DNA of 64,000 bases from contig NZ_JADEYP010000005.1 in assembly GCF_020295405.1 (NCBI RefSeq), positions 104,338-168,337 of the forward strand, in the 5' to 3' direction. Below, piece by piece: positions 3,241-12,633 of this stretch (within the stretch, counting starts at the first letter, position 1; every line of letters starts with the position of its first letter). The stretch comes from Sphingobacterium bovistauri. GTDB taxonomy: Bacteria; Bacteroidota; Bacteroidia; Sphingobacteriales; Sphingobacteriaceae. Under the pieces are notes generated by a model that saw only the letters and a list, made by a program, of their open reading frames with translations, was not told the origin of the DNA and ran no database searches. The position numbers and the translations under genes are program-made.

Positions 3241-3241
3241 G

Positions 3242-3312
3242 TTGTCCGACCTGGATTCGAACCAAGACAAACAGTACCAAAAACTGTCGTACTACCCTTA
3301 TACTATCGGACA
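3242..3312 (-). tRNA. tRNA-Gln(TTG), copy 1
   Basis: The minus strand folds as a cloverleaf: acceptor TGTCCGA/TCGGACA, D-stem GTAT/GTAC, anticodon stem ACAGT/ACTGT with 7-nt loop TTTTGGT (anticodon TTG, glutamine), T-stem CTTGG/CCAGG with loop TTCGAAT, discriminator A. No CCA is encoded. It is identical in sequence to the second copy 209 bp away. Confidence 0.95.
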
Positions 3313-3362
3313 ATCATACAATCAAAATGCTAGATTTAAACCTTGTTTTTTCAACTGCTGTG

Positions 3363-3393
3363 CAAAGATAAAAACTAAAATTAAAGATTCAAA
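3363..3393 (-). promoter_or_regulatory. Promoter of tRNA-Gln copy 1
   Basis: On the minus strand, TTTG (3390-3393) is followed by a 19-nt spacer and TATCTTTG (3363-3370), matching the Bacteroidota TTTG-N19-TAnnTTTG consensus. It lies 50 bp before the tRNA 5' end. Confidence 0.7.
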
Positions 3394-3419
3394 TAAAAAA
3401 TAAAATATTTTAAAATAAA

Positions 3420-3450
3420 AAAAGGAGTTACAATTTGTAACTCCTTTTTG
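3420..3450 (-). terminator. Terminator of tRNA-Gln copy 2
   Basis: AAAAGGAGTTACAA paired with TTGTAACTCCTTTT, just beyond the 3' end of the second tRNA-Gln on the minus strand. It separates the two tRNA units. Confidence 0.75.
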
Positions 3451-3521
3451 TTGTCCGACCTGGATTCGAACCAAGACAAACAGTACCAAAAACTGTCGTA
3501 CTACCCTTATACTATCGGACA
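3451..3521 (-). tRNA. tRNA-Gln(TTG), copy 2
   Basis: Same 71-nt cloverleaf as copy 1, with anticodon TTG and discriminator A. It has its own upstream promoter and downstream terminator, so the two genes are independent transcription units. Confidence 0.95.
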
Positions 3522-7322: not shown

Positions 7323-9374
7323 CTATGGGTTATATCTCCATGGTCTAATGCCTTTAAATTCTGCTAGTTCTGCTGCCCATAGCATTAGGTTTCCTGCTAT
7401 GATACTATTTTGAGCATCTTGACTTCTAGCAACATAATTTTTTGGACTATAAGCGTTTCCATATGGTTTTGCCTTAGGTCTGCCTGTCGTTGCATCAAAT
7501 TCAAAGGGACATGCAGTAGAGGATGTGCCTCCGTCATAGGCCGTCAAACCGCCGTCTCCTAGATAGAAAAAGTTTTTTGTCTTATGACTAAACATTGAAG
7601 GTGTTATAGCGTCTGTAACGTCATCTGCTCTGTTGATCGCCTGTCCGTAAGAATAGATAGTTACCTCACTGCTTGGGACACCAAGTAGACCAACTGAGGT
7701 TGAACTGTCCTCACCCCAATACTTACCTCTAACATCTCCAAAAGGGCCATTTAAGACTCTGTCATTAACATTTAAAAGTGGATACATAGCCCCAGATGTT
7801 GATAGGAATCTAGGTGTAATCGTACCTGTGGGAAGTGCGAATAGTTTGTTTAGTAATGCACCAACCCCTGTAGGGTGGATGTATTCATTCATCAATATAA
7901 AAATTCCACCAGCATTTACATAGTTCACGATTGCATCTTGGAGTGCTGTAGTGTAGGTAAGCTGGTCGAACGCAAATATCACAATATCAGGTCTAAGTGT
8001 CGCGTCTGTTGGATTAAGTTTGGCTAAAATAGTCGCTGTAGTATTAGCATTTACATAGTTTGCTGTATTGTCAGTCGCAGTGCCCCCTATCCACACACCT
8101 TTGCTAGGTGTTGCTGCATCCCAAGGCACCATCCTAACTAAACTGTTGTCTAGGTTTCCAAAATTGCGTAGATCACTAAGCATTTTCCAAGGTGCATTTC
8201 GTTCCATCGCGTAACCCCATACACCACCACTAGAAACATGAAGTATTCGTTTTGAAGGTAATGTATAGGAAAGTCCAACATTAGCAATAAGTTCATCGCC
8301 ATAAGTAGGTGATGTATATTTGAATAGAAATTTGATATCTTTCACAACTGGATAATTAGCATTAGTAAAGGTCGCTAAGTTTATTGATGCTTTAGATGGA
8401 TCTACTGACTTGAAAGTGACTGGAAGATGGGATACTTTAATTTCGAATTCATCCATTATGGATGGATCAGCTGTGTAATAGCTAAACTCCCAAGTGTTTG
8501 ATGGATTGACTGCGTTTGCATCCAAAAATTGACTTACTGGAACATTCTGTAAGTTAGAAAATGAGTTTTGCTTAACATCAAATGTTGCGCTTTTAAAATT
8601 ATTTTGATCTATAAAATGTGCTTTAATTCCGTTTACTGTAGCATACATTCCCAATTTAGTAGCATCTACTTTGACAGTTACTTTTGTCATTTTGTGCTTA
8701 AATAAAATTGGGACATTATAAGTTTTGATGTTGCCTGTTGGAGTACCTGTAGGTATATTTAAGGTGCCCTGTGCATGTAATAAATCCTTGTTAATAGGAG
8801 CTTCTACAGTAGGGTTTTGCAAATCAGCTATAGCGGGTAATGGCTGATCTTCATTATAAGAGTAGGCTATCCATTGATAGGAATCACCTTTGGATACGTC
8901 GAATTTAATAGGAGTCCCGACGGTGCCATCGAAAGTTTTCCAGACAGTTGGGGAATTGTTTTTATAGAACAATATACGATAAGTATGACCTGGGGTCATA
9001 TTCGCTGCAGTTTTCCTTGTTGTTCTATTTTTTATTTTGTCCCTTAGTGATGTCTTGTTATCAAAAGAGGATATACCGTTTCCAATTGAAGTTTGTTCAG
9101 CAATAGCATCTACGGTAAATCCAACCTCATTAGTATAGGTGGTACTTACTGAAACAGTTTCTTGACCATCACTTGAGTATTGTGTGTTTAGACTTGCTAA
9201 TTTAATAGGGTCGGGTGATTGAGATTTTGAATCTTCTATACCAGTAACGGTAAATGAAACGGTTGTTTCGCCATCTTCGGATCCAAATTCATCCTTGTCT
9301 TTAGAGCAACTACTTGAAAATAAGATGAATGCAGTAAATATGGATAGCTTTATGTGTTTAAAAATATTGTTCAT
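7323..9374 (-). CDS. Module 1 lipoprotein: fimbrillin-like N-domain + GATase/ThuA-like C-domain
   Basis: 683 aa with an N-terminal lipoprotein signal (hydrophobic stretch, then SSS-C at Cys23). Residues ~40-370 resemble the Bacteroidota fimbrillin/Mfa family: a VSFTVTGIEDSKS opening strand, PGHTYRILFYKNN, a DLQNP segment and FKHKMTKVTVKVD, the usual fimbrillin motif. Residues ~375-683 form a second domain: KRILHVSSG, PDIVIFAFDQ, a YVNAGGIFILMNEY segment, VLNGPFGDVRGK, NFFYLGDGGL, IIAGNLMLWAAELAEF. This is the alternating strand/helix pattern of a class I GATase-like or ThuA-like fold. I see no clear catalytic Cys-His-Glu triad, so it may bind rather than catalyse. It is 35-55% similar by eye to the products at 10285 and 47760. 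It follows a small peptide gene by 18 bp, probably in the same transcript. Likely cell-surface or outer-membrane; the function is unknown. Confidence 0.75.
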   Translation of the reverse strand: MNNIFKHIKLSIFTAFILFSSSCSKDKDEFGSEDGETTVSFTVTGIEDSKSQSPDPIKLASLNTQYSSDGQETVSVSTTYTNEVGFTVDAIAEQTSIGNGISSFDNKTSLRDKIKNRTTRKTAANMTPGHTYRILFYKNNSPTVWKTFDGTVGTPIKFDVSKGDSYQWIAYSYNEDQPLPAIADLQNPTVEAPINKDLLHAQGTLNIPTGTPTGNIKTYNVPILFKHKMTKVTVKVDATKLGMYATVNGIKAHFIDQNNFKSATFDVKQNSFSNLQNVPVSQFLDANAVNPSNTWEFSYYTADPSIMDEFEIKVSHLPVTFKSVDPSKASINLATFTNANYPVVKDIKFLFKYTSPTYGDELIANVGLSYTLPSKRILHVSSGGVWGYAMERNAPWKMLSDLRNFGNLDNSLVRMVPWDAATPSKGVWIGGTATDNTANYVNANTTATILAKLNPTDATLRPDIVIFAFDQLTYTTALQDAIVNYVNAGGIFILMNEYIHPTGVGALLNKLFALPTGTITPRFLSTSGAMYPLLNVNDRVLNGPFGDVRGKYWGEDSSTSVGLLGVPSSEVTIYSYGQAINRADDVTDAITPSMFSHKTKNFFYLGDGGLTAYDGGTSSTACPFEFDATTGRPKAKPYGNAYSPKNYVARSQDAQNSIIAGNLMLWAAELAEFKGIRPWRYNP
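8798..8869. repeat. 72-bp identical tract shared with 11814-11885
   Basis: This stretch in the module 1 lipoprotein gene is base-for-base identical to 11814-11885 in module 2, while flanking sequence differs at many third positions. It encodes the conserved AYSYNEDQPLPAIADLQNP segment. A recent gene-conversion tract is the simplest reading. Confidence 0.75.
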
Positions 9375-9392
9375 TTTCAGTAAAATAAGAAA

Positions 9393-9596
9393 TTAAAAAT
9401 CAAAAAATTCTGTGTCTTCTTTTTTAGTCCAATCCTCTACCTGAATATCTGTTGGAGCATTTCCAATTATTCCTTGTGTAGAAGCAGTTGCTATAGAATT
9501 TTCAATTTCAAACAATGCAACATGCATTGTTGGAGTGAGGTATTTTTTTAATGCAATATACTCATTTCCAGTTTTTATAGTATTATTTTCTCTCAT
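9393..9596 (-). CDS. Module 1 small peptide (67 aa)
   Basis: A short, signal-less, probably cytoplasmic precursor-like protein. I chose ATG at 9596 because it aligns with the start of the module 2 paralog; a TTG 11 codons upstream (9629) is also possible. It has three parts: a variable polar N-terminus, a YLTPTMHVALFEIEN strand-like segment, and a C-terminal 38 residues (EIENSIATAST to FFDF) identical to those of the 12424 peptide. The DNA of that part differs at 8 positions, all silent. The lipoprotein gene follows 18 bp later. Short proteins of the form aromatic-x-P-x-(I/V)-x-V...E-E followed by a Ser/Thr-rich segment occur near fimbrillin-like genes in Bacteroidota; as far as I know they have no assigned function. 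Confidence 0.75.
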   Translation of the reverse strand: MRENNTIKTGNEYIALKKYLTPTMHVALFEIENSIATASTQGIIGNAPTDIQVEDWTKKEDTEFFDF

Positions 9597-9680
9597 TTTG
9601 ATATAATATTTCGCATCGTTTCTGCTCAAATTGTCAGTTTTCGTGCTTTTACTTAAAAAGATAAATTATAATAGAAAGCT

Positions 9681-9700
9681 GTTTGTGTAGCTGTAAGTTT
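9681..9700 (-). promoter_or_regulatory. Conserved leader element, module 1
   Basis: Plus-strand GTTTGTGTAGCTGTAAGTTT, lying in the leader between the -7 box and the peptide start. A close match is present at 12692-12711 in the module 2 leader, and a weaker one (GTTTGT, then TAGCT) at 50785-50801 in module 3. Confidence 0.35.
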
Positions 9701-9739
9701 ACTTTCTAGTTAAGATTTTATTCTTAACTATTGTTGGGT

Positions 9740-9747
9740 CAAAGGTA
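9740..9747 (-). promoter_or_regulatory. -7 box upstream of module 1 peptide
   Basis: TACCTTTG on the minus strand fits TAnnTTTG, 144 bp before the peptide start. No TTTG -33 box at normal spacing; the nearest is TTGA with a 24-nt gap. Confidence 0.45.
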
Positions 9748-10222
9748 TGGATGAGTTAAATCTCTCGTATTCAATTCTGCCTTTATTTTATTTAACTTGT
9801 GGCTTTACAATTACATTGATTTTTTCTTTTTGTAAAAATATTTTTTTTTGTTTTGCGTTTTTTTAAAAAAATGAGATGGCTCTTTTTGTGCTGTTGGTAG
9901 TATGTTTGTGTCGAGTATAGTGTGTTTAACGCTTGTTTTTAGAAAAGTGATTTGTCATTATTCGGGATGCTTGATTGTTATTTTTGTAAATATTTCTTTT
10001 ATAACGCAATGTTTTTTATTGATTAAGTTTCTTGAAAAAAATAAAAGGGTATATCAGCAATTGATAGGAGTTCTCATTTGCTTATGGATAAAGGAATTTT
10101 ATACATTACTATATTGGTTTGTATTGAAGATTGTTTGTTAAATATAATGGGGTTTAAGATTCAATGATTTGTTCTGATTTTAATTAGGGAGGTATTTGGT
10201 TCGCTTTAATATATTTTGTATT
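9748..10222. other. Intergenic region between modules 1 and 2
   Basis: Very AT-rich. It contains an open frame at 9902-10141 on the plus strand, but this has no recognisable similarity, promoter or start context, and I treat it as chance. Nothing else is seen. Confidence 0.4.
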
Positions 10223-10267
10223 AAAAGAAGAAGGTTCTGTTTGTTGAAAACAGAACCTTCTTCTTTT
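10223..10267 (-). terminator. Terminator after lipoprotein module 2
   Basis: 20-bp perfect inverted repeat (AAAAGAAGAAGGTTCTGTTT and its complement) with a 5-nt loop, just beyond the stop of the minus-strand lipoprotein gene. The A/T runs at the base fit either direction. Confidence 0.85.
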
Positions 10268-10284
10268 AACCTTTTTTTAAAATC

Positions 10285-12405
10285 TTATGGTCTATACCTC
10301 CATGGCGTTATACCGTTAAATTCTGCAAGTTCACCTGCCCACAGCATAATGTTTCCTGCGATGATTCCATTATATGCATAATCACTTCTTTCGTTGTAAC
10401 GAGGTCTTGGATCACTAGCAGGGGGTATGTATAGATTACCGAATAATTTTGGTATAGGTCTAGCGGTAGTAGGATTGTAATCAAAAGGGCAGGCTGTTGG
10501 TGAGACGGCTCCATCGTAAGAAATTAATCCACCATCACCTAAGAAAAAGAAGTTTTTTTCCGTATGTCTAAACATCGTAACATAAGATGCATTTGTCGCA
10601 TTAGGGAGTCTGTTAACTGCTTGACCATAGGAATATATCTCTACTTTATTAAGTGGTAATCCTGTTACTCCATGCGTTACGGAAGCGTCTTCTCCCCACA
10701 ACTTACCTCTAGCATCACCAAAAGGACCATCTAATACACGATTACCATCCGCTATGCCGTCTGTTTTGCTTAGCAATCGATACATAGCTCCGCCATCACC
10801 AAACCCATGTACTTTGATTGGGTTGTCAGCTACTAAAGGTTGATCTGTACCAAACAATTTATTTAAAAATAATGGGATAGTTGGATCATGAAATTCATTC
10901 ATCCAAATAAAGACACCGCCAGCATTTACAAATCGAAGAAGTGCATCACTAACTGTGGTTGGTAAAGATACCTGATCGTAAGCGAATATGATTATGTCGG
11001 GTCTTTTGCTAGCGTCTGATGGTTCAATTTTTGCAAGAAGAGTAGCTGCAGCTGAGTTAGCTAAAAGCCAGTTTTCTGTTTTATCATCTGTGTTAAAATT
11101 ACCACCTTTCCATACTCCTTTACTTGGAGTGGTTGGATCCCATGGAGCCATTCTTACTAGACTATTATCCAAGTTGCCGAAATTGCGAAGATCACTAATC
11201 ATTCTCCACGCAGGTCCCTCTTGAAATGAATAGGCATATGTTGTATTATTAGAAACATGAAATATACGTTTCGAAGGTAGTGTGTACGATAATCCTACTT
11301 TCGCTATTAATTCATTACCTATAGCTGGATTAGTGTAGTTAAACGTGAATTTGATGTCTCTAACAACAGGAAAATTGGCATTGGTAAAAGTTGCTAAGTT
11401 AAGGCTAGCAATTGACGGATCTACCGATTTGAATGTAACAGGAAGATCTGTAACTTGAATTTGAAACTGACTTAATACAGACGGGTCAACAGTATAGTAG
11501 CTATATTCCCAAGTGTCATTTGTAGGCGTTGTGGCATCTAATATTTGGCTAACAGGAACCGTCTGAATATTTGAAAATGTATTATCTTTAATATTAAAAG
11601 TTGCTTTTTTGAAGTTGTTTTGATCTAGAAACTGAACTTTTATACCTCTTATTTGTGCATACAACGCCAGATTTACTGCGTCAATTTTAACAGTAACTTT
11701 TGTCATCTTATGCTTAAAAAGGATTGCTATAGGATACATTTTTATGTTTCCTGTAGGGGTTCCAGTTGGTACAATTAATGTTCCTTGTGCATACAATAAG
11801 TCTTTGTCAGTGAGAGCTTCTACAGTAGGGTTTTGCAAATCAGCTATAGCGGGTAATGGCTGATCTTCATTATAAGAGTAGGCTACCCATTGAAATGAAT
11901 CTCCTTTGGTGACATCAAATTTAATAGCAGTTCCTACGGTGCCATCAAAAGTTTTCCAAACAGTAGTAGAATTATTTTTATAAATTAATATTCTGTACGT
12001 GCGACCATTAGCCATGTTCGCTGCAACGCGAGTGCTATTTGCACTTTTATTCAGTCTTTCTTTTAAAGATAGCCCGTTATCAGCGGTACTAATACCCTTG
12101 CCAATTGAGGTTTGCTCAGCAATGGCATCTACTGTAAATCCAACTTCGTTATTAAACGTTGTTGATACTTTTATGCCATCGGAATTTTCGTTTGAAATTT
12201 CCTGCATTAAATTCTTGTTAGTGCTGGCAATTCGGATTGGTTCAGGGGATTGGCTCTTTGAATCTTCGATGCCGCTAACATTAAATGTTACGGTCATTTC
12301 TCCATTTTGGGCATCAAATTCATTTTTATCTCTTGAACAACTGCCTGCAAATACAACAAAGGCGGCAAATAGAGATAGTTTTATATGTTTAAAAATATTG
12401 TTCAT
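10285..12405 (-). CDS. Module 2 lipoprotein: fimbrillin-like N-domain + GATase/ThuA-like C-domain
   Basis: 706 aa, paralog of the 7323 product. Lipoprotein signal MNNIFKHIKLSLFAAF...AGSC with Cys23; the first 11 residues match module 1 exactly. Fimbrillin-like part: VTFNVSGIEDSKS, RTYRILIYKNN, FKHKMTKVTVKID. The C-terminal domain keeps KRIFHVSN, WRMISDLRNFGNLDNSLVRM, PDIIIFAYDQ, FVNAGGVFIWMNEF, VLDGPFGDARGKLWGED, NFFFLGDGGL and the closing MLWAGELAEFNGITPWRY. Conservation is strongest in the C-terminal domain, which suggests that domain carries the shared function. The peptide gene lies 18 bp upstream. Probably exported and lipid-anchored; a glycan-binding or pilus-like role is only a guess. 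Confidence 0.75.
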   Translation of the reverse strand: MNNIFKHIKLSLFAAFVVFAGSCSRDKNEFDAQNGEMTVTFNVSGIEDSKSQSPEPIRIASTNKNLMQEISNENSDGIKVSTTFNNEVGFTVDAIAEQTSIGKGISTADNGLSLKERLNKSANSTRVAANMANGRTYRILIYKNNSTTVWKTFDGTVGTAIKFDVTKGDSFQWVAYSYNEDQPLPAIADLQNPTVEALTDKDLLYAQGTLIVPTGTPTGNIKMYPIAILFKHKMTKVTVKIDAVNLALYAQIRGIKVQFLDQNNFKKATFNIKDNTFSNIQTVPVSQILDATTPTNDTWEYSYYTVDPSVLSQFQIQVTDLPVTFKSVDPSIASLNLATFTNANFPVVRDIKFTFNYTNPAIGNELIAKVGLSYTLPSKRIFHVSNNTTYAYSFQEGPAWRMISDLRNFGNLDNSLVRMAPWDPTTPSKGVWKGGNFNTDDKTENWLLANSAAATLLAKIEPSDASKRPDIIIFAYDQVSLPTTVSDALLRFVNAGGVFIWMNEFHDPTIPLFLNKLFGTDQPLVADNPIKVHGFGDGGAMYRLLSKTDGIADGNRVLDGPFGDARGKLWGEDASVTHGVTGLPLNKVEIYSYGQAVNRLPNATNASYVTMFRHTEKNFFFLGDGGLISYDGAVSPTACPFDYNPTTARPIPKLFGNLYIPPASDPRPRYNERSDYAYNGIIAGNIMLWAGELAEFNGITPWRYRP
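11814..11885. repeat. 72-bp identical tract shared with 8798-8869
   Basis: Module 2 partner of the identical tract in module 1. Confidence 0.75.
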
Positions 12406-12423
12406 TTTGAATGATATGTGAAA

Positions 12424-12633
12424 TTAAAAATCAAAAAATTCTGTATCTTCTTTTTTAGTCCAATCTTCTACCTGGATATCAGTTGGCGCATTTCCAATTA
12501 TTCCTTGTGTTGAAGCTGTTGCTATAGAATTCTCAATTTCAAATAGTGTAACTTGAATTGTTGGCGCAAAGTATTGCTTCAATGGAATTTTTTCATTGTT
12601 CTTATTGTATCTAATCGTGTTGTTATTTTTCAT
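12424..12633 (-). CDS. Module 2 small peptide (69 aa)
   Basis: ATG start at 12633. The N-terminus (MKNNNTIRYNKNNEKIP) differs from the module 1 peptide. A YFAPTIQVTLFEIEN strand follows, then the same 38-residue C-terminus ending EFFDF. No signal peptide or membrane segment. Eight silent and no replacement differences over the shared 38 codons indicate purifying selection, so this is a real coding gene despite its size. It lies 18 bp before its lipoprotein gene. Function unknown; possibilities include a secreted precursor, a subunit or chaperone of the lipoprotein, or a regulatory peptide. Confidence 0.75.
   Translation of the reverse strand: MKNNNTIRYNKNNEKIPLKQYFAPTIQVTLFEIENSIATASTQGIIGNAPTDIQVEDWTKKEDTEFFDF

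Follow-up and report, generated by a model that had tools for sequence, protein, structure and literature searches.

Two genes recur as a unit in a 64,000-nucleotide (nt) stretch of the Sphingobacterium bovistauri genome (contig NZ_JADEYP010000005.1, positions 104,338 to 168,337), which we refer to in full as the window. One encodes a small peptide and the other a large lipoprotein, and the three copies of this module (A, B and C) lie where the original prediction had placed them, all on the minus strand (Table 1). Searches in related genomes establish that the module is real, recurrent and specific. In the genomes of Sphingobacterium and Elizabethkingia that were examined, a lipoprotein gene of the family almost always has a tiny-protein gene of its own as its neighbour.

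Inspection of the three copies reveals a common order with one rearrangement. The peptide-to-lipoprotein gap of 18 nt, originally ascribed to every copy, holds for copies A and B and fails for copy C, where it measures 714 nt. This longer gap contains the relic 3' end of a second peptide gene, and because the relic tail sits 11 nt before the ATG of lipoprotein C, copy C probably once had the direct peptide-lipoprotein arrangement too. Lipoproteins A and B are 61% identical. The last 39 residues of peptides A and B are identical, and since their codons differ by eight synonymous and no amino-acid changes, the peptide reading frame is truly coding. Elsewhere in the window are two tandem tRNA-Gln (TTG) genes (3241-3521), and a search of the whole window with Rfam at gathering scores returned two tRNAs only and no other known RNA element.

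Table 1. Features of the three module copies in the window (aa, amino acids).
Feature	Positions	Strand	Description
Peptide A, 67 aa	9596-9393	minus	Ends EFFDF; own-family profile E 1.3e-26 (profile contains peptide A)
Lipoprotein A, 683 aa	9374-7323	minus	Lipobox Cys23; type V pilin-like N-domain and ThuA/GATase-like C-domain, predicted by similarity to copy B
Promoter box of module A, TACCTTTG	9747-9740	minus	-7-type, TAnnTTTG
Upstream element TACAGCTA	9695-9688		Window example
Peptide B, 69 aa	12633-12424	minus	Ends EFFDF
Lipoprotein B, 706 aa	12405-10285	minus	Lipobox Cys23; type V pilin-like N-domain (Mfa_like_1) and ThuA/GATase-like C-domain, predicted by AlphaFold and fold searches
Promoter box of module B, TAACTTTG	12763-12756	minus	-7-type, TAnnTTTG
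Peptide C, 69 aa	50774-50565	minus	Ends QFWDF
Relic 3' end of second peptide gene	49876-49862	minus	...HFWDF, stop; 20-nt match to peptide C tail, E 6e-4
Lipoprotein C, 696 aa	49850-47760	minus	Lipobox Cys27; pilin-like N-domain; C-domain resembles copy B by alignment
Promoter box of module C, TAATTTTG	50837-50830	minus	-7-type, TAnnTTTG

With peptide B as the query, nine matches were obtained in its own genome (expectation value, E, from 5e-43 to 0.29), and a lipoprotein open reading frame (ORF) follows in 9/9. A profile built from these nine peptides gave 20 matches, of which 18 have E ≤2e-5 and the other two E 0.56 and 1.0. Behind each of the 18 convincing peptides comes a lipoprotein gene in the same orientation, 17 times at short range and, in copy C, across the longer gap. 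The presence of 18 pairs in one genome indicates that the pairing is not incidental.

Linkage was then counted in seven genomes of the genus, namely that of S. bovistauri and six single-contig genomes, in which peptides and lipoproteins were searched for separately. The peptide profile (A2, 40 rows) gave 81 matches, one of which is a weak 21-residue piece (G012, E 0.0017). The lipoprotein profile (A5), built from the 18 peptide-linked lipoproteins of S. bovistauri, gave 104 matches; the 87 strong ones collapse to 79 loci, including broken genes in G038, and the 17 weak ones (E 6.6e-5 to 0.009), four of which sit at linked genes, are not counted among the 79. A peptide lies within 1 kb of 78 of the 79 loci, the exception being a fragment. 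Conversely, a lipoprotein was found within 1 kb of 79 of the 81 peptides, and the count rises to 80 with L178 in G044, where reading of the locus places a lipoprotein directly after the peptide. About 0.7 linked peptides of 81 would be expected by chance. Without the S. bovistauri genome, 60/61 lipoprotein loci and 62/63 peptides are linked. Because A5 was built from peptide-linked lipoproteins, the figure of 78/79 describes the peptide-linked subfamily and not all fimbrillins. The original prediction had suggested a test for co-occurrence within 1 kb above chance, and these counts show such co-occurrence; it had also held that peptides or lipoproteins commonly found apart would make the pairing incidental, and these genomes do not show such a pattern.

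In the wider genus sample, a peptide match at E 0.1 is present in 54/60 genomes. The six peptide-less genomes, one of them only 85% complete, hold no full lipoprotein match, with weak partial hits in two (E 1e-5 and 3e-5). Among seven genomes with a single peptide, six have a lipoprotein match at E ≤3e-21; the seventh has one at E 4e-4, and its peptide match is itself doubtful (E 0.05). The peptide-lipoprotein unit is kept or missing together across the genus genomes.

To follow the family further, 84,980 species genomes were scanned for E[QN]GIAAGSA, a motif that detects only the peptides carrying it. Of 85 stretches found, 70 encode relatives, and these fall at 69 loci, all named Sphingobacterium or Elizabethkingia and hence from two classes of Bacteroidota. 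An intact lipobox ORF lies on the same strand, no more than 700 nt downstream or 200 nt upstream of the peptide, at 66 of the 69 loci (39 after the peptide, 26 before, one both). The remainder are L129, with a broken lipoprotein before the peptide, L116, with none, and L137, which cannot be judged since its contig starts 427 nt upstream. In Elizabethkingia the peptide comes first at 25/25 loci. The L149 peptide, from Sphingobacterium sp. CZ-2, is identical to one (L066) in the same-genus genome G004. Beyond the genus, the one hit among 395 genomes sampled from the phylum was a doubtful one within a 323-residue ORF (E 4e-4), and a second such sample, of 148 genomes, gave no peptide match better than E 0.01; neither sample showed convincing look-alike small proteins beside fimbrillins in Bacteroidales. 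A protein search returned 474 relatives. Apart from one metagenome record of Flavobacteriaceae (P0042), the best 120 of these come from Sphingobacterium or Elizabethkingia wherever an organism is given; they carry no functional name save one source label (P0002) that does not fit. As far as sampled, the family appears not to be general in Bacteroidota. An Elizabethkingia peptide (P0083), the one peptide used as a tblastn query, had no match in annotated phage and plasmid collections, and a phage or plasmid family was set aside on that result. A defence system was likewise discarded, PADLOC having given one weak hit (E 0.08) for three lipoproteins and one peptide as queries. A full-text literature search found no paper on such a pairing among the abstracts it returned, subscription papers being largely outside its reach.

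Two loci have a particular layout. In G044, similar-looking ORFs of 324-336 residues alternate with three modules (L178:612-1586, 8012-8986 and 11562-12572), and the first has a weak LuxR-type (GerE) hit under the Pfam cut-off. In G016 (L175, L176), an IS1595-family transposase ORF stands beside both a broken lipoprotein gene and a distant peptide gene, as if an insertion element had split the module.

Gene order bears directly on whether the small ORF might serve as a cis-acting leader that controls lipoprotein translation by coupling or stalling. Its usual 5' position and short gaps, 18 nt in copies A and B, would suit such a role, but the peptide gene is divergent from its lipoprotein in 4/81 cases in the seven genomes, stands far off in copy C, and is conserved most strongly in the middle of the peptide. 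A cis leader or attenuator is rejected because the peptide lies 3' of the lipoprotein at 26 of the 69 named loci, and we regard it as extremely improbable. Rather, linkage independent of gene order, together with selection on the amino acids, points to a protein that acts in trans. The latter is seen in omega values of 0.085-0.154 in six ortholog sets and 0.14 for peptide A versus B; B versus C alone gives 0.45 over few sites. Judged from its codons, the peptide is under purifying selection.

The sequence of the peptide was examined across 118 members, which have a median length of 59.5 residues. The median charge is +2 before a YxxP motif and -6 for the rest. Counted from the Y, the core reads Y-x2-P, hydrophobic at +5, +7, +10 and +12, E at +13, I at +16 and S at +20; the counts for Y and P are circular because the picking pattern required both, while E was required only as E/D/Q and S as S/A/T. 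Conservation is strongest in the middle of the peptide, with a conserved first half and a variable second half. The FxDF ending first noticed in the window holds for these copies and marks one subtype only, as W ends 60/118 peptides and F, L or I 41/118. Neither Pfam nor NCBIfam gave a convincing match for the peptide, and the PDB, searched by sequence, gave none for profile A2 or lipoprotein B. Hydropathy over 15 residues stays below 1.6 in 116/118 peptides, in line with the early description of the peptide as cytoplasmic-looking. The peptide appears to have no clear export signal and would, on these features, remain in the cytoplasm.

The IAAGSA-type motif in the conserved first half, followed by a second half that varies, could also describe the leader and core of a secreted signal or bacteriocin-like precursor, with the lipoprotein as its receptor or immunity factor. 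Double-glycine leaders carry GG, GA or GS with hydrophobic residues at -4, -7 and -12. The peptides show no such register, however, having E at -7, which is not hydrophobic, and variable residues at -2 and -1, and PF03412 has no match at E 0.001 in G000, G004, G038 and G053 (18, 8, 8 and 13 peptides). C39-peptidase transporters, one or two per genome, occur in the peptide-bearing G012, G029 and G044, and they are present in 4/5 peptide-less genomes tested. Double-glycine secretion is ruled out since the S. bovistauri genome, with 18 modules, has no C39 transporter, and a secreted signal or bacteriocin-like precursor seems highly unlikely.

Each of the three module lipoproteins in the window has a lipobox cysteine behind a hydrophobic segment. 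Pfam Mfa_like_1 (PF13149, cut-off 27 bits) scores 27.7 for B, 28.3 for C and 22.9, below the cut-off, for A. A fused AlphaFold model of peptide and lipoprotein B (782 residues) has a mean predicted local distance difference test score (pLDDT) of 76 and a predicted template modelling score (pTM) of 0.71. Foldseek matches residues 111-451 of this model with type V pilins and about 451-780 with folds like those of ThuA and glutamine amidotransferase (GATase). The pilin matches for lipoprotein B are FimA prepilin (6jzk), Mfa2 (5nfi), Mfa3 (5nf4) and BF1861 (3sy6), at E 4e-7 to 4e-4 and template modelling scores by target of 0.32-0.38; viral structures gave no informative match. The model thus predicts a pilin beta-sandwich followed by a ThuA/class I GATase-like C-domain in lipoprotein B. 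The term GATase-like, used of these lipoproteins from the outset, is supported by fold for the copy B model and does not extend to the family, in which this domain is one of several interchangeable C-domains. Lipoprotein B has cysteines at positions 23 and 639 only and lipoprotein A at 23 and 622, and neither Cys639 nor Cys622 is at the strand-helix turn after the GGVFI/GGIFI strand. The C-domain of A and B therefore has no GATase nucleophile cysteine and is likely a binding module.

Other members carry different C-domains. L096 and L149 have FISUMP/Lcl_C-like domains by weak hits below the curated cut-off, an Elizabethkingia miricola lipoprotein (L136:4185-5717) has a CBM14 (peritrophin-A) chitin-binding C-terminal domain over the Pfam cut-off, and a further type ends like GKKKIPC. 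Together, the lipoproteins are predicted to be surface adhesins with exchangeable binding domains. In the S. bovistauri genome, Mfa_like_1 is found at nine places: six belong to the 18 modules, and the other three are canonical fimbrillins that form a cluster (G000:C71:19143-23283, L057-L059). This cluster gives the three strongest PF13149 hits of the genome and has no family peptide. Because the Mfa_like_1 hits split in this way between modules and peptide-less canonical fimbrillins, the peptide marks one lipoprotein subfamily.

Upstream of the modules, TAnnTTTG boxes had been reported for each peptide of the window and were found for all three. Within 300 nt upstream, the box is present in 11/18 S. 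bovistauri modules, compared with a shuffle mean of 3.8 (maximum 7 in 200 shuffles), and within 250 nt in 49/88 peptide-first modules, compared with 18.3 expected from shuffles. The reported lack of a matching -33 element was also seen, as TTG 19-21 nt before the box occurs in 0/17 S. bovistauri modules and 4/71 others (0.1 and 1.2 expected). The similar leader element said to be shared upstream proved narrower. The element, TACAGCTA, is present in 4/17 S. bovistauri modules and 1/71 others, so it is not general, and it is possibly a local regulatory site.

These boxes inform a further alternative, that of a regulator acting in trans, by which the peptide would tune or select expression of the lipoprotein next to it. 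The peptide is small and acidic and nearly always a neighbour, in either order and at times divergent, and selective expression would benefit genomes with as many as 18 parallel modules. The -7 box upstream of peptide-first modules, however, suggests shared transcription and not control by the peptide, which also has no convincing match to a regulatory or any other family and no predicted fold. We consider a regulator distinctly unlikely.

The explanation we put first, tentatively and at less than even confidence, is that the peptide is the cognate cytoplasmic escort of its pre-lipoprotein before and during export. The 67-69-residue peptide would act in the cytoplasm as a dedicated escort of the neighbouring type V pilin-fold lipoprotein. 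With its conserved half (Y-x2-P, alternating hydrophobic stretch, invariant E, IA-x2-S) the peptide would hold on to something that all modules share, either the pilin domain while still unfolded or some general component of export. Specificity for the matching clade of lipoproteins would come from the acidic tail and its last residue, aromatic or aliphatic. After lipidation the lipoprotein would reach the cell surface and serve there as an adhesin, its ligand set by the C-domain.

Several observations weigh against a dedicated escort. On the side of linkage, 13 of the weak A5 matches, mostly short N-terminal stretches, have no peptide near; a lone peptide occurs in G029 (L177), L116 has no adjoining lipoprotein, and in G016 the peptide is intact while its lipoprotein is broken (two frames) 36 kb away. 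On the side of location, 2/118 peptides surpass a hydropathy of 1.6, and 19/118 have a run of at least nine hydrophobic or small residues near the start. On the side of structure, AlphaFold gives the peptide alone a pTM of 0.25 and no overall fold, with residues 11-30 at pLDDT 85-86. Fused to the lipoprotein, the peptide scores pLDDT 33-50 in blocks of ten residues and no interface is placed; a peptide was present in just 10 of the 30 alignment rows, so the missing interface says little either way. The evidence for specificity is also divided. Distance comparisons (partial Mantel) over all pairs have the peptide track the N-domain, those inside the F clade have it track the C-domain, and the clades behave oppositely. 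Moreover, the tree reduces the agreement of the two partners to a single split, in which the lipoprotein residue changes once and the peptide end four times.

That agreement is close, with W-ended peptides paired with a YxF pilin domain and F/L/I-ended peptides with YxW in 98/101 pairs, and both clades occur within one genome. The count began from 121 pairs, less eight without a recognised lipobox and three removed by hand as spurious or broken, and nine of the remaining 110 are unclassed. FISUMP-like, RCV-ended C-domains lie on both sides of the split. Direct coevolution by an aromatic swap was considered and dismissed as contact evidence, since the tree has a single change of the lipoprotein residue; the agreement shows faithful co-inheritance and not contact. 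Two loci, L032 and L144, have two peptide genes each, one LINW-ended and one TWDF-ended, as adjoining modules of both clades.

Ranked second, and rather unlikely in our estimate, is a role outside the cell, in which the peptide, exported with no Sec signal, joins the surface adhesin and fills the role of a strand donor or cap, supplied in trans, in the groove of its pilin domain. Donor-strand assembly has been proposed for type V pilins (PMC4789730, PMC11316588), and the lipoprotein N-domain matches these pilins. The peptide has an alternating hydrophobic stretch after the conserved Pro; modelled alone, its residues 11-30 are predicted with confidence but without a partner strand. A one-to-one ratio of peptide to lipoprotein would also fit a stoichiometric subunit. 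Against this, the peptide has no clear export signal, the genome with 18 modules has no C39-peptidase transporter, and the fused model leaves the peptide unplaced. Its broadest form, that every pilin-fold adhesin needs its own strand-donating escort of ~60 residues, with trans donor-strand complementation and export without a known signal in two Bacteroidota classes, would seem unlikely.

In either case, a nameless family of small proteins accompanies a large adhesin-like family almost without exception and reaches 18 copies in one genome. Should the peptide be an escort, this would add a step to the surface display of pilin-fold lipoproteins in these bacteria. Even if that reading is wrong, the tight pairing offers a clean genetic test of one small gene against one lipoprotein.

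The module can be set beside several known systems. Like the FimA and Mfa fimbrillins (PF13149) of type V pili, the lipoproteins are lipoprotein precursors with a predicted two-domain beta-sandwich, the model of lipoprotein B matching the four structures named above. They differ from these in mostly lying in scattered modules, with no multi-gene pilus operon, in the additional domain at the C-terminus and in the nearly obligate small partner. Another comparison is with lipoproteins in which an Mfa-type domain is fused to a Fib_succ_major (FISUMP) domain, reported in PMC4159848 as targets of diversity-generating retroelements. The lipoprotein nature, the Mfa-type domain and, by the weak hits of L096 and L149, the FISUMP C-domain are shared with those targets, whereas the passages of PMC4159848 consulted mention no small partner and the window copies carry a ThuA/GATase-like C-domain. 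From ThuA-like and class I GATase-like domains themselves, lipoproteins A and B are set apart by the absent nucleophile cysteine. Finally, dedicated secretion chaperones and pilots are small acidic proteins, one per substrate, encoded by an adjacent gene. The peptide resembles them in being small, acidic, one per substrate and encoded next door, but it has no convincing match to a named family, and its substrate would be a lipoprotein.

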